Assembly (NCBI GenBank): GCA_002839095.1 | Contig: PGXL01000004.1 | Location: 1-64,000, forward strand | Source: Tenericutes bacterium HGW-Tenericutes-2 | Lineage (GTDB): Bacteria; Bacillota_I; Bacilli_A; Acholeplasmatales; Acholeplasmataceae | Length of the DNA stretch: 64,000 nt | Direction: 5' to 3' | Part shown: positions 23,451 to 37,619 of the stretch, piece by piece | Layout of the letters: every line of letters begins with the position of its first letter | How positions within the stretch are numbered: position 1 is the stretch's first letter | Made by a program: the position numbers and the translations under genes | The notes under the pieces: generated by a model | What the model was told of the DNA's origin: nothing | Database searches by the model: none | The model's input: only the letters and a program-made list of their open reading frames with translations

Positions 23451-23564
23451 ATATAAAAAACTAAAAAAACATCAATTATTAAACACAATTGAGAATATAA
23501 CTTGTTATTTATAACAAAGCGTACTAAAATAGATATGCACCTTAAAATTAGAAAGAGGAATTTC

Positions 23565-25325
23565 ATGAAAAAACTACTATTTATTATCAGTATAATGCTC
23601 TTCTCATTTACACTTTTTTCTTGTACTGAAAGCGCAAATTACTCGATTGATCGCGTACTAGATCGCGTCGATGTTATTTATGCAGAGGGAGATAGTGTAT
23701 TCTCTGTTACCAAGCATGTTACATTACCTAGTCAAACAGATTTAAACAAGTCTGCCACTTTAACTTGGACATCAGACACACCAGATATTTTAGATGAGTT
23801 TGGAACGGTCAATAGACCAAATGAAACCACTGAAGTCATTCTTACACTTAAAGTGACATTGAATGGTGAAACCAGAGAAAAAAACATTTATATAATGGTT
23901 ATCGGTAGATACCAATTTTATGATGTCTTATTTGAGGTTGATGGAGCTAGCTATGGATCAATCAAAGTCAAAGAAGGTGATTTAGTTGAACCAATAGAGG
24001 ATCCAGTTCTTGAAGGTTTTAGCTTTAAAGGTTGGTTCACTTTAGAAGATAACGAAACTCCTTTTAATTTTAGTACTCCAATTACAGATAACATTAAACT
24101 AATCGCTAAGCTAGATGTATTAGTATTAGCTGATTACAGTATCGAGTATTATTATCAAAATATTGTTGATGATGCATATACACTCACAGCAACTGAAGAG
24201 TTTAATGGCGAAGTCGGATCACAAGTAAACGCAACCAAAGTTATTGAAGGCTTTTCAATAGATTCTGAGCAAAGCATTTTAGCAGGAGTTATCTTGGCAG
24301 ATGATTCACTCGTGCTTAAGGTTTATTTAGAAAGAAATACATACAGTATTACATTTATTTCTGAGGGAGTAGAACTTTCCTCTAATCCATATAAATATGG
24401 TTTTACATTAAATGAAAACACAGAGCCTCAAAAAGATGGCCATGTTCTAGTTGGTTGGGCAACCACACCAAGCGGAACAACACCTTATATATTCCCGTAC
24501 ATCGTATCAAATGACCTAACATTTTACGCTATTTGGAGACTTGATGATGGATATACATATGAAGGCTATTATGATGGTGCAGATGGATTATCCGGTATTG
24601 ATTTAAGAACATTCCTAAGAATGAGAGTAAACAACGGCAAAACACTCGTTGATTATGGTACTGCTAGATATGTCTTAGATGATACAGACCGTGATCCAAA
24701 TAACGCTAACAATTTAATTCTTGTATATCTAGGAACTTCAGTTTCTGGAGTTTGGGATGGCGGTAGTACTTGGAATAGAGAACACGTTTGGCCACAATCC
24801 CTACTAGGGGTCGCTGCAGTCAATAATGTAGCAAACGCAGCTTCTGACCTTCAAAACCTAAAGCCTGCAAATCCTGCAGAAAACTCAAGTAGAAGTAATA
24901 AGTATTTTGATAATGTAACCAATGCACATACATACAATCCTAGAGATGCTGTCAAGGGAGATGTCGCGAGAATTTTAATGTATATGGATCTTGCATATAG
25001 CAATCTAAATCTTGTGAACACATATCCAGCAACCTATCAAATGGGTAAATTAGATGTATTATTACAATGGCATCTACAAGATCCAGTAGATGATTTCGAA
25101 AGAAACAGAAATGAAATTATTTTTGGATACCAAAATAATAGAAATCCATTTATTGATCATCCTGAGTTCGTAGAAAAAATATGGGGACCAATTACGCTTA
25201 CAGCATCTAATAACGAGACATTCACAATTGAATTGGATTTCCCTAGTATGTTTGAAACAATTGAAATCATAAGTTATGATATACTTTATATAGATTTTAA
25301 AAAGGAATCAAAATATCTAGTATAG
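23565..25325 (+). CDS. lipoprotein with Ig-like and InlB-type repeats and an endonuclease I domain
   Basis: 586 residues. The ATG at 23565 has AGAGGAA upstream and begins a lipoprotein signal peptide, MKKLLFIISIMLFSFTLFSC, whose lipobox Cys is residue 20, so the protein is anchored outside the membrane. An Ig-like domain (about 25-115) and InlB/Listeria-Bacteroides type repeats come next (about 120-320; FKGWFTLEDNETPFNFSTPI and LVGWATTPSGTTPY mark two of them). The C-terminal half (about 335-570) is endonuclease I: WNREHVWPQS with catalytic His407, then SDLQNLKPANPAENSSRSNK and RNRNEIIFGYQNNRNPFIDH. Probable role: degrade external DNA or RNA for nucleotide scavenging. A paralogue lies at 34956-37619. 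An in-frame start at 23502 is unlikely because it buries the signal peptide. Confidence 0.9.
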   Translation: MKKLLFIISIMLFSFTLFSCTESANYSIDRVLDRVDVIYAEGDSVFSVTKHVTLPSQTDLNKSATLTWTSDTPDILDEFGTVNRPNETTEVILTLKVTLNGETREKNIYIMVIGRYQFYDVLFEVDGASYGSIKVKEGDLVEPIEDPVLEGFSFKGWFTLEDNETPFNFSTPITDNIKLIAKLDVLVLADYSIEYYYQNIVDDAYTLTATEEFNGEVGSQVNATKVIEGFSIDSEQSILAGVILADDSLVLKVYLERNTYSITFISEGVELSSNPYKYGFTLNENTEPQKDGHVLVGWATTPSGTTPYIFPYIVSNDLTFYAIWRLDDGYTYEGYYDGADGLSGIDLRTFLRMRVNNGKTLVDYGTARYVLDDTDRDPNNANNLILVYLGTSVSGVWDGGSTWNREHVWPQSLLGVAAVNNVANAASDLQNLKPANPAENSSRSNKYFDNVTNAHTYNPRDAVKGDVARILMYMDLAYSNLNLVNTYPATYQMGKLDVLLQWHLQDPVDDFERNRNEIIFGYQNNRNPFIDHPEFVEKIWGPITLTASNNETFTIELDFPSMFETIEIISYDILYIDFKKESKYLV

Positions 25326-29481: not shown

Positions 29482-31098
29482 TTATAAATCAATGGTTTGA
29501 TCAATTAAATGATCAGGAAGCTTTCGATGACTGATGATAATGCATGTCTTATCGGTAAGAGATTTAATATTCTCAAATATCTTTTTTTCAGTCTCTGGAT
29601 CCAGTGCAGAAGTAATTTCATCAAGCAGCATGATTGGTGCATTCTTCAGTAAAGCGCGAGCTATCGCTAGACGCTGAATTTGCCCCTCTGAGAGCCCTAG
29701 ACCCTTTTCTCCAAGTCTTGTATCCAGTTGATCCGGTAAAGCTTTTATATCCTCATAAAGACAGGATATTTTTAAGGCTTCTATCATTTTTTCATCACTT
29801 GATTTTTGGTATAATTCTAGGTTTTCTCTTATCGTTCCTGAGAGAATAAAGTTGCCTTGCGGCACATAGGAGAATAAATTTCTAGTTGATGCGTCACATA
29901 AAAATTTACTTCTTTTTAATGTGAAGAAAATGAATCCTTCAAGTGGCTGATATAGTCCAAGAAACAGCTTGAATAGTGTTGTTTTACCCTTGCCAGACTC
30001 ACCGTGGATATGAACAAATTCTCCAAAGTTTATTTTAACATTTAATTTATTAATGACATTATTTGAGTCGTATTTAAAGCTCAATTTTTGAATGATTAAC
30101 GTATCAAAATCAGTTTGTCTCTTTGTAATACTAGGGGTCTCTAACTCAAAGGAGTCAATCATCATTAAACGTTCTGCTGAAGCCATCATCGTGTAATATT
30201 TTGGCAGTAAATGTGAGAGTCCTGAGAACGGAGATTGAATGTGAGATACAAGTTGAATTAAAGCAGTGAGCGCTCCAAAGGTTATGACACCTTCTTTGAG
30301 TCTATACGCACCAAAAATAATTGCGAAAGCATAACCAAAACCAAAGAATATATTCATGCCAGTTGAAGCAAATATAGAAAGCTTTTGTTTTCTACGTAAA
30401 GCCTTGAAATGTGCCTCTTGAAAATTAGATAATTTGCCTGACATTAAAGACTCAGATTCAAAGGATTTAATCACTGATATATTTTCTAAGCTCTCTTGCA
30501 TAAAGGAGCGAAGATCTCCTTCAGCATCCTGAAGATGATGATGTCTTTTTTTCATTTCTTTGCTGATTAGTCTACTACCTAATAATAAGAGAATTCCAAA
30601 TCCAGCAAATAAAATAGCAAACATTGAGTCCAGTAAAAAGAGTAATACAAATGCACCTAGAAATCTTACAAGAAAGAAGATTAATTTTGGAATTACATCA
30701 AGCAATCCATCACTCACATTTTCAACATCACTGTTTAGGTAATTCATCATTTGACCAGAGTGTAGCTTCGATGTGTCCTTAAGCTTTGACTTTAGTATCT
30801 TTTGGAAAAGACGATCCTTATAATTGATATTGGTTTGACCTTGATAGTAGGTCTTTAAATAAGAGTTAACTCCCTGAGCGATGATTTGAATTAAGATGAG
30901 TGATGATAAAATAATCGCACTAACTAGAAAGAGTTGATTATTTTGGTTAATTGCACTATCAATCGTTTCCTTTGAGAAGAACGCAAAAAGTATCGCTGTT
31001 AAACTTAAGACTAAGCTTAACGACGATAGAATTAAAATTGGATATTTTAAGTGCTTATTATGTGTGCGTAACCAAGCGATTGTCAAGTTCTTTTTCAT
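29482..31098 (-). CDS. ABC exporter, fused membrane and ATPase domains
   Basis: 538 residues. About six membrane helices (20-290) are followed by an ATPase domain with Walker A GESGKGKTT, signature LSEGQ and Walker B IMLLDEI. This half-exporter type works as a homodimer and commonly exports peptides or lipids. No N-terminal C39 peptidase is present. The ATG at 31098 is chosen because AGGG lies five bases upstream and a candidate -10 (31118-31123) sits inside the longer reading that would begin at 31149. It is divergent from the HprK-like operon, with about 120 bases between starts, which suggests that it exports the product of that locus (inference). Confidence 0.85.
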   Translation of the reverse strand: MKKNLTIAWLRTHNKHLKYPILILSSLSLVLSLTAILFAFFSKETIDSAINQNNQLFLVSAIILSSLILIQIIAQGVNSYLKTYYQGQTNINYKDRLFQKILKSKLKDTSKLHSGQMMNYLNSDVENVSDGLLDVIPKLIFFLVRFLGAFVLLFLLDSMFAILFAGFGILLLLGSRLISKEMKKRHHHLQDAEGDLRSFMQESLENISVIKSFESESLMSGKLSNFQEAHFKALRRKQKLSIFASTGMNIFFGFGYAFAIIFGAYRLKEGVITFGALTALIQLVSHIQSPFSGLSHLLPKYYTMMASAERLMMIDSFELETPSITKRQTDFDTLIIQKLSFKYDSNNVINKLNVKINFGEFVHIHGESGKGKTTLFKLFLGLYQPLEGFIFFTLKRSKFLCDASTRNLFSYVPQGNFILSGTIRENLELYQKSSDEKMIEALKISCLYEDIKALPDQLDTRLGEKGLGLSEGQIQRLAIARALLKNAPIMLLDEITSALDPETEKKIFENIKSLTDKTCIIISHRKLPDHLIDQTIDL

Positions 31099-31117
31099 GT
31101 GATCCCTCATTGATTCT

Positions 31118-31126
31118 ATTTTAACA
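31118..31126 (-). promoter_or_regulatory. candidate extended -10 for the ABC exporter
   Basis: On the minus strand TGT-TAAAAT lies 20 bases before the start at 31098. No clear -35. It also argues against the longer start. Confidence 0.45.
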
Positions 31127-31178
31127 TGTTTTTTTAGATGAAGTTTCATTTATCTCAGGGTTAGAGAGTTTTTACCTA

Positions 31179-31216: not shown

Positions 31217-32074
31217 ATGAAAAGAAAATATAATATCGCTGGTATAAAAATTGAACTCAATTATCATTATGATGAATTTCTTAAGGGTAATATCGAATCT
31301 TATTTGATAGATGAACATGAGGTTTGTGACTACGAGATTCAAGTTTTTTTGCGTGATGAAATTAAAAAGCCTGAAGAAGAAACAATTTCTAAAATGAATC
31401 CCTACGTTATCATGAAGGATGACCACCGGGTTATATATGCATTAAACGCTAATGGGGATGTTAAGGAATTGATTACACACACAAATGATTATAAGCATAC
31501 CAAAATTGAAATCAATCCAAGTCTTTTAAAGAATCCTGCTGAAGTAGAATATATTATGCTTGGTGTTACATTCTTAGAAATCGCGCTAAGATGTGGATTT
31601 CTACCCATACACGCTTCAGCTATTTTATATAGAGATGAAGCTATCTTATTTTCCGCTCCCTCTCAAACAGGAAAATCCACACATGCAAAAATATGGATGA
31701 ATACCTTTGGAGATGTTGAGCTTTTGAATGATGATAAACCGTTATTAAAGCTAGAAGATCAAAAAATTATGGTTTACAGCTCTCCATTCTCAGGTAAGAC
31801 ATCAATCAATCAAAACAAACATGCACCCTTAAAATCAATTATCTTTTTAAGACAAGGGTTAACAAATTTAGTGTCAGTAATGACTGATGAAGTGATGATT
31901 GAAAACTTGATGAGAAATATATTAAGACCTGATCGCACGGATCTGTGGGATCAAGTCTTATCTAAAATATCAAAATTAATCAATGAGATACCTATTTATC
32001 AAATAGAAGCAACTATGGACAGTGAAGCAGCAATAGCAGTACATGATATGATATATAAGGAGAATTTGAAATGA
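31217..32074 (+). CDS. HprK-like kinase domain protein of a peptide-maturation locus
   Basis: 285 residues. The C-terminal half resembles the catalytic domain of HPr kinase: LPIHASAILYRDEAIL with His132, Walker A SAPSQTGKST at 146-155, and NDDKP at 171-175. The N-terminal part (1-110) is not the usual HPr kinase domain. Proteins of this build occur beside PqqD-like and nucleotidyltransferase genes in peptide clusters; the one from the paeninodin lasso cluster phosphorylates its precursor peptide (established for that family). Overlaps the next gene by four bases. A housekeeping HprK role is less likely given the context and the unusual N-terminus. Confidence 0.8.
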   Translation: MKRKYNIAGIKIELNYHYDEFLKGNIESYLIDEHEVCDYEIQVFLRDEIKKPEEETISKMNPYVIMKDDHRVIYALNANGDVKELITHTNDYKHTKIEINPSLLKNPAEVEYIMLGVTFLEIALRCGFLPIHASAILYRDEAILFSAPSQTGKSTHAKIWMNTFGDVELLNDDKPLLKLEDQKIMVYSSPFSGKTSINQNKHAPLKSIIFLRQGLTNLVSVMTDEVMIENLMRNILRPDRTDLWDQVLSKISKLINEIPIYQIEATMDSEAAIAVHDMIYKENLK

Positions 32075-32787
32075 AGTATTTAAAAAAGGTTTTATTTGGT
32101 ATTATACTCACCATCATTTTATTAGGGGCACCCATTATTGGTAGATTAGGAGCAAATCTATTTGATTTCAGTAATCTTGATCCAGATGGTTCATTTTTAT
32201 GGATTAGTGTTCACCACATTATTCAAGCAGTTGTTATTCTAATTTTAATTTTCATTAGCATCAAGGTATTTTCACTAGATTTCAATCTTGGCCTTGGTAA
32301 TAAAGAAGTAGGCATCAAGTATTTGAAAAGATTTATGTTCTTTTTTATGATTTATACCGTTGGTGCATTTGGTTCTATGATTTTAATGGGTGGCTTTCAG
32401 CCATTCCAATATCCACTCACTGGATTAAACATCACTGGATATTTAGGCTTTCAGCTATTATTATCCGGACCATCAGAGGAGCTCATCTTTCGTGCATTCG
32501 CAATCACTATCTTCGCATTCTTAATCACAGATAAAAGATTGAATAAGCATATTAGCTATGCAAATCTGTTTGCAGCAATCATTTTCGGTCTCGCACATGT
32601 CTATATTAGATTTAGTCCATTTGAAATAAACTATACTGTATTTCAAGTTGTATACGCAACGGTCTTAGGATATTTTTATGGGGATTGCTACGAAAAATCA
32701 AAGAGTGTGATTTATCCAATGATTATGCACAGCTTTACCAATGTAGTCATGATTGGTTTAACTGTGATCCTATCATTTATCTTATAA
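32071..32787 (+). CDS. CPBP family intramembrane protease
   Basis: 238 residues with about seven membrane helices. The CPBP (Rce1-like) motifs are all visible: EE-x3-R at Glu136, Glu137 and Arg141 (SGPSEELIFRAF), His176 in FGLAHVY and His220 in MIMHSFTN. These proteases cleave in or at the membrane, and in peptide-bacteriocin loci they serve in maturation or self-immunity. Here it is the second gene of the HprK-like operon, so one of those roles is plausible. Confidence 0.88.
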   Translation: MKYLKKVLFGIILTIILLGAPIIGRLGANLFDFSNLDPDGSFLWISVHHIIQAVVILILIFISIKVFSLDFNLGLGNKEVGIKYLKRFMFFFMIYTVGAFGSMILMGGFQPFQYPLTGLNITGYLGFQLLLSGPSEELIFRAFAITIFAFLITDKRLNKHISYANLFAAIIFGLAHVYIRFSPFEINYTVFQVVYATVLGYFYGDCYEKSKSVIYPMIMHSFTNVVMIGLTVILSFIL

Positions 32788-32816: not shown

Positions 32817-33080
32817 ATGAAAATTAAAGAAGGCTATATTCTAAAGAATGTATCAGGTAAAAATATTGTTGTTCCAGTTGGTGAGGAAGCAGTCAATTTC
32901 AACGGGTTAATTAAATTGAATTCAAGTGGTAAAATGCTTTTTGAAGCAATGCATAGAGATGTTGAAATGATTCAATTAGTTCAACTGATGCTTGTGCATT
33001 ATGATATCGATGAGGAAACCGCTAAAAATGATGTAAATGCATTTGTAAATAAACTAAAGAGTAAAGGAATTATTGAGTGA
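32817..33080 (+). CDS. PqqD family peptide-binding protein
   Basis: 87 residues, the usual PqqD size. It starts MKIKEGYILKNVSGKNIVVPVG and has the pattern LNSSGKMLFEAM typical of the winged-helix fold. PqqD-like domains (RRE, RiPP recognition element) bind the leader of a precursor peptide and bring it to modifying enzymes. A leader-like YVKPEV motif is found in the 42-residue peptide at 34826. AAGGGAG precedes the ATG, and the TGA overlaps the next gene by four bases. Confidence 0.87.
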   Translation: MKIKEGYILKNVSGKNIVVPVGEEAVNFNGLIKLNSSGKMLFEAMHRDVEMIQLVQLMLVHYDIDEETAKNDVNAFVNKLKSKGIIE

Positions 33081-33502
33081 AAAAGGAAGTCATTGCTACA
33101 AATGATTTGATGAGTCTTGTTATAGATTCCATCAATAACAACCAAAAAGCAACCTTTAAGGTAACGGGTAGTAGCATGACCCCATTTTTTACTCATGGAA
33201 AAACATCAGTAACCATAAGAAAAAATGAATTACCATATCAAAAATATGATGTGATTTTATTCAAATATAAAGAATCCTTTAAACTACATAGAATCATTAA
33301 AATAAGTGATAAGATGATTGTTGCTAGAGGAGACGCCTTATTTGCTAAAGAGATGATTTCTGCTTATGATATCATCGGAGTCGTTGAATCCTTTGAGACG
33401 GATGGAGTTATTACATTATCAAATGATAAAAGCTATTTAAAAAGAGTTAGAAGATACCTATTATTTAAACCAATCAGTTTAAGACTTAGGAGGTTCAAAT
33501 GA
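33077..33502 (+). CDS. S24/S26-type peptidase, signal-peptidase-like
   Basis: 141 residues, no membrane helix. TGSSMTPFF holds the probable nucleophile Ser33. FKLHRIIKI with His71 and VARGDALFA at 83-91 follow the SipW/archaeal pattern, in which His replaces Lys. Members of this family often sit with PqqD-like genes and are suspected of removing peptide leaders. The nearby 42-residue peptide carries an Ala-Ser-Ala stretch, a common signal-peptidase type cut site. Starts with GTG overlapping the previous stop. Without a membrane anchor it probably acts in the cytoplasm or with a partner. Confidence 0.8.
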   Translation: MKKEVIATNDLMSLVIDSINNNQKATFKVTGSSMTPFFTHGKTSVTIRKNELPYQKYDVILFKYKESFKLHRIIKISDKMIVARGDALFAKEMISAYDIIGVVESFETDGVITLSNDKSYLKRVRRYLLFKPISLRLRRFK

Positions 33503-34677
33503 AAGAAACCATCCAAGAACTATTTAGTGCAGTGAAATGCGCACTGAAGCAAGATAAGTATATAGAACCTATTCTTAATGAGAAAGCTTTTTATATTATG
33601 TCAATGGAAAATGGACTATCAGGTATCATTTATAGTGCCATAGATAAATATAGAGTATCTGAATTATTCCATAAAAGATTAGAAAGAAACTTCTATGATT
33701 ATGTAGCTAGAGATATCAAACAAATAGAAGCGATTAACTATATTGACGGACTATTAAATGATAAAAAAATAGAGCATATATTTTTAAAGGGTAGTCGCTT
33801 GAAATCCATATATCCAGAGTCCTACATGAGAGCAATGGGAGATATTGACATTTTAGTTCATGAAACAAAAATGAAAGAAGTTCATGAGCTATTTAAGAGT
33901 CAAGATATTATTTGCACATCTAGATCGAAGCAGCATGATGTATTTGAAATGAAAAATAAGCTAGTCATTGAGATACACCCATTCTTATATAAAGACTTTA
34001 ATCCAAAGTATAAAGAATTATTTAGTGATGTATGGAAATATACAAAGCACATGAGTGATTCAAGGTATGAATTCACTCATGAGTTTGAAATCACTTATCT
34101 TTTATATCACCTAGCTAAGCATTTAGATTCAGGTGGAATTGGATTAAGAAGTGTTTTAGATATTGGTATTTATTTATCTAGATTTGAAGCGACGATGGAT
34201 GAAAAGGTGTTGATTAAGTATTTAGAGAGTGCAGATATGAAGAGATTCTATCAAAGCATGGTTGATATCAATAGACAATGCTTTGGTTTAGCATTTCAAA
34301 TGAATCTTAATAATGAATATATCATGGATAGTGATACATTAAATGAAGTGGTTCAATATCTAGCAGTATCAGGTGTTCATGGTATAGGAAGAGATTTCAA
34401 TGTCTTCCAATCAAGACTCGCTAGTGAAGAAATTAAAAATAGAAGTAAGATAGGATTTATTTTAAGATTAATCTTTCCTGATTATGAATCGATGTGTGGA
34501 ATGTATCCATACATTAGAAAAGCTAAAATATTAATTATTTTTGGTTGGATATCCAGATGGTTTAAGCTATTATTTTTAAAAACAAAGTCTAGTTTTAAGA
34601 AGATTAAATCACTAAAAGTGAAAAAGGAAGATTTAGAAAAGAGTAAAGAAATTTTTTCAAAATTAGGATTGAAATGA
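33499..34677 (+). CDS. nucleotidyltransferase family protein (PF14907 type)
   Basis: 392 residues. The nucleotidyltransferase core is clear: IFLKGSRLKSIYPESYMRAM with Gly98-Ser99, then GDIDIL with Asp115 and Asp117 as metal ligands, and IEIHPFL near 155-161. It matches the uncharacterised nucleotidyltransferases found in peptide clusters with HprK-like and PqqD-like proteins. It could attach a nucleotide or sugar to a peptide, or act on a tRNA or antibiotic; the target is unknown. The C-terminus is Lys-rich. ATGA overlap with the previous gene, and the operon terminator follows directly. Confidence 0.8.
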   Translation: MKETIQELFSAVKCALKQDKYIEPILNEKAFYIMSMENGLSGIIYSAIDKYRVSELFHKRLERNFYDYVARDIKQIEAINYIDGLLNDKKIEHIFLKGSRLKSIYPESYMRAMGDIDILVHETKMKEVHELFKSQDIICTSRSKQHDVFEMKNKLVIEIHPFLYKDFNPKYKELFSDVWKYTKHMSDSRYEFTHEFEITYLLYHLAKHLDSGGIGLRSVLDIGIYLSRFEATMDEKVLIKYLESADMKRFYQSMVDINRQCFGLAFQMNLNNEYIMDSDTLNEVVQYLAVSGVHGIGRDFNVFQSRLASEEIKNRSKIGFILRLIFPDYESMCGMYPYIRKAKILIIFGWISRWFKLLFLKTKSSFKKIKSLKVKKEDLEKSKEIFSKLGLK

Positions 34678-34682
34678 TGCTG

Positions 34683-34715
34683 AAGTGCTTCATTTTGGAA
34701 TGAAGCACTTTTTTG
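34683..34715 (+). terminator. terminator of the HprK-like operon
   Basis: A perfect 12-base stem AAGTGCTTCATT/AATGAAGCACTT with loop TTGG and then a T run. It separates the maturation genes from the peptide gene that follows. Confidence 0.95.
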
Positions 34716-34786: not shown

Positions 34787-34825
34787 AAAACCAAGTATTT
34801 TTATTATTCAACACGGAGGTTTTTT

Positions 34826-34954
34826 ATGATGGAAAACAAAGCAACCTATGTAAAACCCGAAGTAGATATTATTGAATTTGTTTTTGAGGACAGCATTGCA
34901 GCAAGTGCTGATATGGGTGCTTGGTTTAACGAGACAATCTGGGGGGATGAATAA
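34826..34954 (+). CDS. 42-residue peptide, candidate RiPP-type precursor
   Basis: A short open frame with a strong CGGAGG ribosome binding site seven bases before the ATG. Residues 1-28 look like a leader: YVKPEV (8-13) matches the YxxP-x-(L/V) motif read by PqqD-like proteins, followed by an acidic, hydrophobic stretch ending SIAASAD (23-29). The last 13 residues, MGAWFNETIWGDE, hold two Trp and four acidic residues and no Cys or Ser, with Thr37. Ala-Ser-Ala at 26-28 is a plausible cleavage site. It lies beyond the HprK/CPBP/PqqD/S26/nucleotidyltransferase operon, and its stop is one base before the nuclease start. No lasso ring is possible by the usual rule, since no Asp or Glu sits seven to nine residues after a Gly at a likely start. 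Being a precursor is an inference. Confidence 0.6.
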   Translation: MMENKATYVKPEVDIIEFVFEDSIAASADMGAWFNETIWGDE

Positions 34955-34955
34955 G

Positions 34956-37619
34956 ATGAAAAAACTATTCACTCTACTAATTACAGTCTTTTTATTAGGA
35001 TTTGTGGCTAGCTCATTGGTCAGTGTAGAAGCAAGCACAAGTGTAAATTATACTGTAGATGGTATTTTTGATACTGGTGGTACATGGGATGGACTTTCTG
35101 GTACAGCCACTAGAGGAAACACTATCTCATTTGATATTTCAAGTAAACCAGCAGGCCATGATTTCGCATTTTGGATTATCAATGGTGTAGTTAGAAAAGA
35201 TTTACTTCCTGGTCACGAATATACTTTTACTACTAAGAATACTTTGCAAATAGTATTTACTCCAACTGATAAAGTTGCAGCTGTATTCATTGATAGTAAT
35301 GGGGCATATTTAGGTGTTAAGTATACTACAGGTGGTGCTGTTGTTGATACGGGGCTTGCAAACACACCCGCAAATAGACCTGGTTTTGTAGTTAGTTCAA
35401 CAACGAAATGGACTTCTATTTCTGGTTCAGCATCTATTAATGATGTGCAGGAAAATTCAGTATTTGTGCTAACTTATGAAGCAGATGATACTCCGCTTAG
35501 TGATGTCACACTGAACGTTGTGAACGGAACTGCTTCAGTAGAAAATCCCGTGCCATTTAATTCCTTAGTTACAGTAACTGCAAACACAGCTCCTGATGGA
35601 CAAGTTTTTGCTGGCTGGGAAGAAAATGGGATTCTTGTCAGTAACAACCCAGTTTATGTTTTTTCTGCATTAACAGGTAGATCACTAGAAGCAAAGTATG
35701 CTACTTTATTTCAAGCGGAACCATTGGTAAGTATTTTAGAAGGCGTTGAATATCGTGAAGGTTATATATCACTCATTGGCCAATTTGATATTCCAAGCGG
35801 TTATACACTTTTAGAATACGGGTTTTTTATTATCAAATTATTATGTTGAAAGTCTAGCTTTAAACAACCCATCAGATGTTATTGTTGCTCAATCTAACAA
35901 TTATCAATCCTCAACTAAAGAGTATGTGACTAGTTTTAGCAACACGTTAAATATAATAAGCTCAAGAGCATATATGATTATTGAGAATGATAGTACTTCC
36001 GAACAAATTGTGGTATATAGTGAAAAATCAAATCACGTATCTCAAGGATTGATGATTTATTCAATATATGGTCATGGAGGAAATACTGGTGCAGTATATA
36101 ATAGAGATTATGTAGTACTGTGGAATGGAAGCAATTCACCTATTGATTTAAGTACTTATACTATTCAGTATGCAGGTGCAACTGGTACAAGCTGGGGTAG
36201 ATTTATCTTAAGTGAAACAATTCCATCAAAAGGTTTTATCTTGCTTAAACTTGCGACTGGAACAAGTGGAGGGGTGGATTTACCTTCTTATCCATTAAGT
36301 TTGACAAACGCATCACCAAATATTGCTGGTTCAGCAGGTAAACTTGCATTGATGAGTACAACAAATTTAATTACTTCGGGCATTTCGAATCCTATAGGCC
36401 ATGTAACATTTGGCCAATATGTAGTTGATTTTGTTGGATTTGGTACCGCAAATGCATTTGAAAATCAAGTTGCTCCGTCACTTAACAACGCCTCTATCAG
36501 ACGTGTTAAGTTGCTAGATACTAATAACAATTTTGCCGACTTCCAACAAGCAACAGCATCCGAAGGACTAGATATTCTTTTCCCGTAATTAACCCCACTG
36601 AAGACACCACAGCCCCAGAAATAACACCTCTGCTAGAGGTGTCTTCTTTCTCAGTAGGGGACCCAGAACCATCATTGGGCTGTACAGCGATCGATGACGT
36701 CGATGGACCTATTACATGCCAAACCTTTGGTACTATCGATACATCTACAGCTGGAAGTTATGTCGTTACATATTATGCAATCGATTCATCAGATAATGAA
36801 ACAACAATTGCTATTACTTATACCGTAATTGATCCAGAAAATCCTGATAATGAAGTAGAACTAACTGCATATTATTCATCTGCAACTGGACTCACTGGAA
36901 ATGATCTTCTTTTAAGTTTGCGTTCAATTATTAACACAGGATTAATTAGGGTCTCCTATGGTGATGCGAGATACATCTTAAATATAACCGATCAAGATCC
37001 TTTAAATTCAAATAATGTAATACTAGTTTACTTAGGAACTTCTGTATCTGGCACTTGGGATGTTGGAGTAACTTGGAATAGAGAACACGTATGGCCACAA
37101 TCCTTAATGATGACAACCACACTCACTAATACATCTAAAAACATTGGATCTGACCTACACAATCTTAAACCAGCTAACCCATCCGAAAATTCAAGTAGGG
37201 GTAATAAATACTACGACTATTTTACAACTACAAGTTCTTATGCCCCTAGAGAAGAAGTTAGAGGAGATCTAGCTAGAATACTCTTTTACATGATTGTGAT
37301 GTATGACTATCTTGAACTCATTAATACCACACCAACGTTATATAAGATGGCTATGTTAAATACATTATTGCAGTGGCATATTGATGATCCAGTGGATGAT
37401 TTTGAAAGAAATAGAAACGATGTCATCTATGATTATCAAAAAAATAGAAATCCGTTTATTGATTATCCGGATTTTGTTGAAAAGATTTTTGGACCAGTTC
37501 CACTATCAAATGATCAACAATTTTACATGCTTCAATATGATTCAGATTTTACAGCAATAACGGTTAATTATGAAGTGGATTTTAGTTCAATAAAGAAAAA
37601 AGAGGCATTAACAATATGA
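34956..37619 (+). pseudogene. secreted endonuclease I with lamin-tail and Ig-like domains, two frameshifts
   Basis: One gene of about 887 codons is split into three frames. The start at 34956 (after GGGGGG) gives a Sec signal peptide, MKKLFTLLITVFLLGFVASS with likely cleavage after VEA. InlB-like repeats come first. At the T6 run 35823-35828 one extra base shifts the frame: removing a T restores EYGFLLSNYYVESLALNN. The middle part (to 36588) carries a lamin-tail-like domain (YVVLWNGSNSPIDLSTYTI). At the T run near 36579-36581 one base is missing: adding a T restores DILFPVINPTEDTTAPE. An Ig-like domain and the endonuclease I domain follow (WNREHVWPQS, His codon 37086; SDLHNLKPANPSENSSRGNK). 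All domains are otherwise intact, so sequence error, slippage-based phase variation or early decay are all possible. Confidence 0.8.

Follow-up and report, generated by a model that had tools for sequence, protein, structure and literature searches.

What is the open reading frame of 42 codons at positions 34826-34954 of the 64,000-nucleotide stretch of DNA analysed here (the window), and what would become of its product? A first-pass annotation had described it as a peptide with a YxxP leader and a tryptophan-rich tail, cut from its leader by a protease of the locus. The following features of the peptide gene are relevant; LPP stands for the linear polyphosphorylated peptides (PMC13381572) discussed below.

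34682-34711, + strand: terminator-like hairpin of 13 bp with a T tract between NTP_transf_5 and the peptide gene (sequence)
34815-34819, + strand: Shine-Dalgarno sequence GGAGG of the peptide gene (sequence)
34826-34954, + strand: precursor peptide of 42 aa, MMENKATYVKPEVDIIEFVFEDSIAASADMGAWFNETIWGDE (homologue conservation, pN/pS)
34829, + strand: alternative ATG start, in frame with ATG 34826 and giving 41 aa
34847-34864, + strand: YVKPEV, residues 8-13, predicted RRE-binding motif YxxPx[V/I/L] (alignment; LPP/lasso consensus in PMC13381572)
34892-34900, + strand: Ser23-Ile24-Ala25, proposed cleavage site with a cut after Ala25 (conservation)
34904-34906, + strand: Ser27, candidate kinase target (55/56 conserved; by analogy with Ser3 of LppA, PMC13381572)

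The strong ribosome binding site, YVKPEV at residues 8-13, Ala-Ser-Ala at 26-28 and the tail (residues 30-42, MGAWFNETIWGDE) were all present as claimed. No family of Pfam or NCBIfam matched the precursor peptide, and no Rfam match was obtained near the locus. The first-pass annotation had also placed the start region of the gene beyond a strong terminator and considered it to be expressed separately from the maturation genes. The hairpin with its T tract is there, a separate promoter is plausible, with no sigma-70 consensus promoter in the gap between NTP_transf_5 and the peptide gene, and the claim of separate expression overlooks the coupling of the peptide gene to the secreted-protein gene that follows it.

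The open reading frame is a real, conserved gene. When a profile built from nine homologues was used to search 160 genomes of the order (E<=0.01), precursor homologues were recovered in 31 of them, which bears out the proposal that the peptide would be conserved in relatives next to PqqD genes. When 395 genomes sampled from the class were searched with a wider profile, 66 contained the precursor, and a peptide search at the level of the phylum made no additions beyond the class. In 60 fetched loci 55 precursor copies were found, and the residue alignment, comprising 56 sequences, revealed strong conservation of Tyr8 (54/54), Pro11 (55/56), Ile24 (52/56), Ala25 (50/56) and Ser27 (55/56; numbering of the 42-aa form). 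Among seven congeners the overall pN/pS ratio was about 0.26, indicating purifying selection, with values of 0.22 up to Ser-Ile-Ala and of 0.33 thereafter, which are rough since synonymous sites are near saturation. A conserved leader followed by a variable tail had been expected; the leader is indeed conserved, but the tail is conserved inside families, differs only among them and is less variable than the core of a classical RiPP. In precursors of family f24 (L117-L125) a cysteine-bearing tail TxCGEExF, for example TMCGEEIF, replaces the Trp-Gly motif.

Because the last peptide codons, TGG GGG GAT GAA, also contain the Shine-Dalgarno sequence of the next gene (ATG 34956), conservation of WG(D/E) may be partly at the nucleotide level, i.e. 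dual-coded. As the sole cause of tail conservation such an artefact was rejected in part: Trp-Gly is kept in two loci lacking an immediate next gene (L043, L044) and in a third (L083) with 200 nt between the peptide and the next start detected, and residues ahead of Trp-Gly are also conserved inside families.

Upstream of the peptide gene lies a set of genes that might encode its maturation machinery:

29482-31149, - strand: ABC exporter (ABC_membrane + ABC_tran), LppD-like, divergent
31217-32074, + strand: HPrK-related kinase (P-loop, H132, NDDKP), LppK-like
32071-32787, + strand: CPBP/Rce1-like intramembrane protease, within the cassette only here and in L026
32817-33080, + strand: PqqD-like RRE (N35, Y62, D72, F76), LppB-like
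33077-33502, + strand: S26/SipW-like peptidase with no evident membrane anchor (S33, H71, D86, E92), LppS-like
33499-34677, + strand: NTP_transf_5 nucleotidyltransferase (GDID motif), LppN-like

The same cassette gene order was encountered across families, and in L120 and L122 NTP_transf_5 ends just 16-18 nt ahead of the peptide. NTP_transf_5 occurs in 30 of the 31 peptide-positive genomes and in 18 of the 129 others (30/1/18/111; Fisher p 7e-19), and the S26 peptidase co-occurs with the peptide similarly (p 9e-13), both p values being optimistic as related genomes are counted as independent. In genus g11, NTP_transf_5 is located elsewhere in the genome, which counts against the explanation favoured below. 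A contig search with the single NTP_transf_5 protein returned two relatives only, both of them MAGs of Acholeplasmataceae. In about 30 homologues the active-site motifs are kept, namely the P-loop, His132 and NDDKP of the HPrK-related kinase and GDxD of NTP_transf_5, and in about 30 homologues of the S26 peptidase, which carries an SxMxP motif and the catalytic His, Ser33, His71, Asp86 and Glu92 are invariant. The structural model of this peptidase (pLDDT 90) matched LexA and signal-peptidase chains best, if weakly (E 1e-3 and above). Natural fusions of HPrK with the RRE (HPrK-PqqD; L033 5739-6830, L037 6150-7244, L039 9293-10381) and of HPrK with S26 (L138 5027-6139 and L144 7018-8166, in genomes G029 and G061) point to a single substrate shared by kinase, RRE and peptidase. 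The HPrK-S26 fusions adjoin divergent further peptides ending in SWFAD or ASWWN.

The first-pass annotation had drawn an analogy to lasso peptides, whose YxxP-type leaders are read by PqqD-like proteins. The part of this claim that concerns leader recognition is supported. The model of the RRE (pLDDT 92) matched the leader-bound lasso RREs TbiB1 and TfuB1, and its profile aligned to LppB (9x8z) with D72/F76 on LppB D70/F74, the Asp and Phe that hold Tyr and Pro of the leader (PMC13381572); D72, F76, N35 and Y62, counterparts of the Tyr-binding D70, F74, N33 and Y60 of LppB, are conserved and in register, so that binding of the leader by the RRE seems probable. A lasso peptide precursor would have just such a leader, and the nearest relatives of the RRE in sequence and fold are lasso B1 proteins. 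However, the S26 peptidase takes the place expected for B2, the B2 leader peptidase (PF13471) was found in none of the 12 genomes searched, and the search for a macrolactam synthetase in the genome of the window gave nothing beyond an Asn_synthase match that is marginal (E 1.4e-5), partial and located on another contig. The lasso analogy was therefore abandoned, and we consider a lasso product highly improbable. The phosphorylated lasso peptides paeninodin and pseudomycoidin resemble the present system in their discrete RRE and in tailoring by an HPrK kinase and a nucleotidyltransferase, a combination for which PsmK/PsmN is a precedent (PMC9266682), but here there is neither cyclase nor B2 protease and the candidate Ser is near the leader junction instead of C-terminal. 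Among other known systems, ScmC of the SynChlorMet cassette (TIGR04249) is similar to the HPrK-related protein (E 7e-6), although the score is far below the family cut-off (25.5 vs 125 bits). SipW/archaeal-type signal peptidases I have the Ser-His catalytic motif and the S24/S26-type fold in common with the S26 peptidase, which in contrast comprises 141 aa, has no evident N-terminal membrane anchor and is encoded together with an RRE.

A closer counterpart is provided by the LPP RiPPs, described in Nat Commun 2026 (PMC13381572), whose clusters encode the same five enzymes and a YxxPxV leader and in which cleavage by the SipW-like LppS is RRE-dependent and Ser3 of the LppA core is (poly)phosphorylated; the experiments reported covered kinase, peptidase and RRE (PMC13381572). 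With the LPP system of Bacilli (Paenibacillus alginolyticus lppALC-K-B-S-D-N; PMC13381572) the locus shares RRE, HPrK-like kinase, SipW-like peptidase, NTP transferase, an MsbA-like exporter, the absence of a macrolactam cyclase, the YxxPx[V] leader and a conserved Ser just past the leader. An LPP cluster combines an SpI-like peptidase, a discrete RRE, an HprK kinase, an NTP transferase and an MsbA-like exporter, all of which occur together here, and the leader motif [Y]xxPx[V/L/I] is present too (Tyr 54/54, Pro 55/56). The full consensus YxxPxVLxHQxIxFETxxS was not matched in the 56-sequence alignment, agreement being confined to YxxPx[V/I] and the downstream Ser, with the spacing off by one residue. 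Lacking the HQ and FET parts, the precursor is probably best called an LPP-like RiPP variant and not a strict LPP member. Unlike LPPs of Bacilli, the system is found in Acholeplasmataceae and their relatives, its leader reads ExxEFxx-E[DE]-[SA]IAxS, its precursor copies are dispersed, with tails conserved within families, and they are paired with a secreted exoprotein, LPPs being paired with capsule loci. HPrK-RRE and HPrK-S26 fusions also set it apart, as does the S26 peptidase, in which the second acidic position is occupied by the invariant Glu92, which may correspond to the D93 that LppS needs. This Glu and the incomplete match to the consensus count against the LPP-type explanation. In the literature searched, no paper combined Acholeplasma and PqqD, and the term 'linear polyphosphorylated peptide' occurred in one paper only. 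Altogether, LPP-like maturation of the precursor is well supported by sequence and appears very probable.

The leader/core organisation and removal of the leader by the S26-like protease, both put forward in the first-pass annotation, find support in these comparisons, but the proposed cut after Ala28 is disfavoured by the 56-sequence alignment: it would discard the near-invariant Ser27, and position -3 would be Glu, Gln, Asp or Leu in many homologues. The leader is most likely cut after Ser23-Ile24-Ala25, since this site fits the -3/-1 rule of signal peptidases far better, with Ala, Thr or Ser at -1 in 53/56 and Ser, Ala, Thr, Val or Ile at -3 in 54/56 sequences. In an alternative register, Ala25-x-Ser27 would be placed on Ala1-x-Ser3 of LppA, leading to a cut after Ile24. 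By analogy with LppA, Ser27 is the likely phosphosite and target of the kinase. The same enzymes might also install a modification other than that of LPPs, with nucleotidylation, for instance, as the main one; GDxD and other residues of NTP_transf_5 are fully conserved and the final LPP structure is not established, but the kinase likewise retains its P-loop and the precursor its near-invariant Ser, and we regard such a departure from LPP chemistry as rather improbable. In the system used to express LPPs (PMC13381572), no activity of NTP_transf_5 could be detected, a point that was counted against the LPP-type explanation.

Downstream, the peptide gene is followed by:

34956-35828, + strand: partner exoprotein, signal peptide and N-terminal module, with an apparent frame break after ~35828
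35829-36588, + strand: remainder of the partner exoprotein with its LTD domain, continued in a different frame
36639-37619, + strand: Endonuclease I-family protein, following in the same order in relatives

The frame change in the partner exoprotein (35820-35930) lies near a T run at ~35828 and is either real or an assembly error; in relatives the partner is one longer intact ORF of ~830-1090 aa. The partner ATG at 34956 is one base past the peptide stop. In the 60 loci, 48 of 55 precursors overlap, or are within 25 nt of, a gene whose product begins with a signal peptide; 40 lie upstream of the partner and eight directly downstream. Of the remaining seven, most are next to an interrupted gene or at the end of a contig. 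Signal peptides were called by a simple hydrophobicity rule, a similar form of which 42% of large ORFs in the loci pass, and against this background of the loci the pairing has a p value of 2.5e-12. Partners of the upstream type have a common N-terminal module of ~330 aa, with 27-44% identity to that of the window, which is covered by no Pfam or NCBIfam family, some members giving only partial InlB-repeat matches. Their C-terminal parts vary (InlB repeats, LTD, LRR, Big_2), and most partner exoproteins have neither a C-terminal membrane segment nor a lipobox. In the order-wide search the module (A5) was found in 24 genomes, 23 of them peptide-positive, and 28 of 33 modules had a peptide within ~20 nt, a count that leaves out one same-ORF repeat match and two partial hits. 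Three intact modules had no detected adjoining peptide (two in G054, one in G029), which counts against the explanation preferred below, and G157 contains four modules and four peptides. As precursors abut exoprotein genes and 28/33 modules come with a peptide, one cassette would serve dispersed peptide-exoprotein pairs.

In L043, L044, L095, L127 and L133 the order is reversed, the peptide being situated 2-22 nt after the secreted-protein gene, and in family f3, where the peptide follows the exoprotein, the order-wide search detected no A5 module; both points likewise count against the preferred explanation. Since the Shine-Dalgarno sequence of the next gene is inside the last peptide codons, the ORF might be a regulatory leader that is translated only to drive the exoprotein gene by coupling, its amino acids being irrelevant. 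This reading is hardly credible given the pN/pS value, the conserved motifs far from the Shine-Dalgarno sequence, the co-occurrence of peptide and cassette and the fact that in some families, f3 among them, the peptide comes after its exoprotein.

Another possibility is that the LPP-type RiPP is a freely diffusing signal or antimicrobial and that exoprotein adjacency merely reflects shared regulation in a surface/nutrient-scavenging regulon. The four precursors of G157 have nearly identical core tails (SFFGTLGSEEIWGE), but the three partners compared are only 30-44% identical in their N-terminal parts, and the core is therefore not partner-specific there; secreted nucleases nearby would also fit a diffusing peptide. 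However, shared regulation requires neither start codons that overlap the peptide stop nor the tracking of one N-terminal module in 28/33 copies, and we consider a freely diffusing product unlikely. In many loci an Endonuclease I gene comes after the exoprotein gene, in G064, G066 and G029 such genes are among the cassette genes (L085 and L087 among the loci), and the window contains a second secreted protein of this family at 23502-25325. A link of the system to DNA scavenging is possible from these neighbours.

Our preferred explanation, which we hold to be probable as a whole, is an LPP-kind linear RiPP that is matured by the cassette and is coupled to, and works with, the exoprotein. It builds on what can be read from the sequences, namely a conserved precursor, a cassette of five genes whose motifs are intact, the co-occurrence of the two and the exoprotein pairing, and every chemical step is modelled on LPP and lasso precedent. 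The PqqD-like RRE would bind the Tyr-x-x-Pro leader and pass the precursor to the HPrK-type kinase, which would phosphorylate the near-invariant Ser where leader and core meet. The S26/SipW-like peptidase lacking an evident membrane anchor would cut off the leader, with the cut most likely just past Ser-Ile-Ala; NTP_transf_5 might extend the phosphate by another group, and the ABC exporter would secrete the matured peptide. Coupled to the precursor gene is that of a modular exoprotein, secreted by Sec and bearing a conserved N-terminal module. Mature peptide and exoprotein would most likely work together once outside the cell, the peptide serving for example as a ligand or an attachment group. 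Joint action of mature peptide and partner exoprotein, taken by itself, is proposed tentatively, at somewhat less than even chances. Slightly more tentative still is the idea that the peptide serves exoproteins bearing an undescribed N-terminal module as their dedicated partner or attachment group, in a pair system that might attach or activate secreted surface proteins in mostly wall-less bacteria, one cassette serving several dispersed pairs.

Compared with the published description of LPPs (PMC13381572), the pairing of precursors with secreted-protein genes (48/55) is new. The same machinery is common among the Acholeplasmataceae and in related families within the class, and the precursor-exoprotein pairing is a first lead on what peptides of the LPP kind might be for: it suggests a role outside the cell, together with a definite protein partner, and makes this role testable. 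In wall-less bacteria, anchoring of secreted proteins to the cell wall by sortase is impossible, and a peptide-based device would therefore be of general interest.
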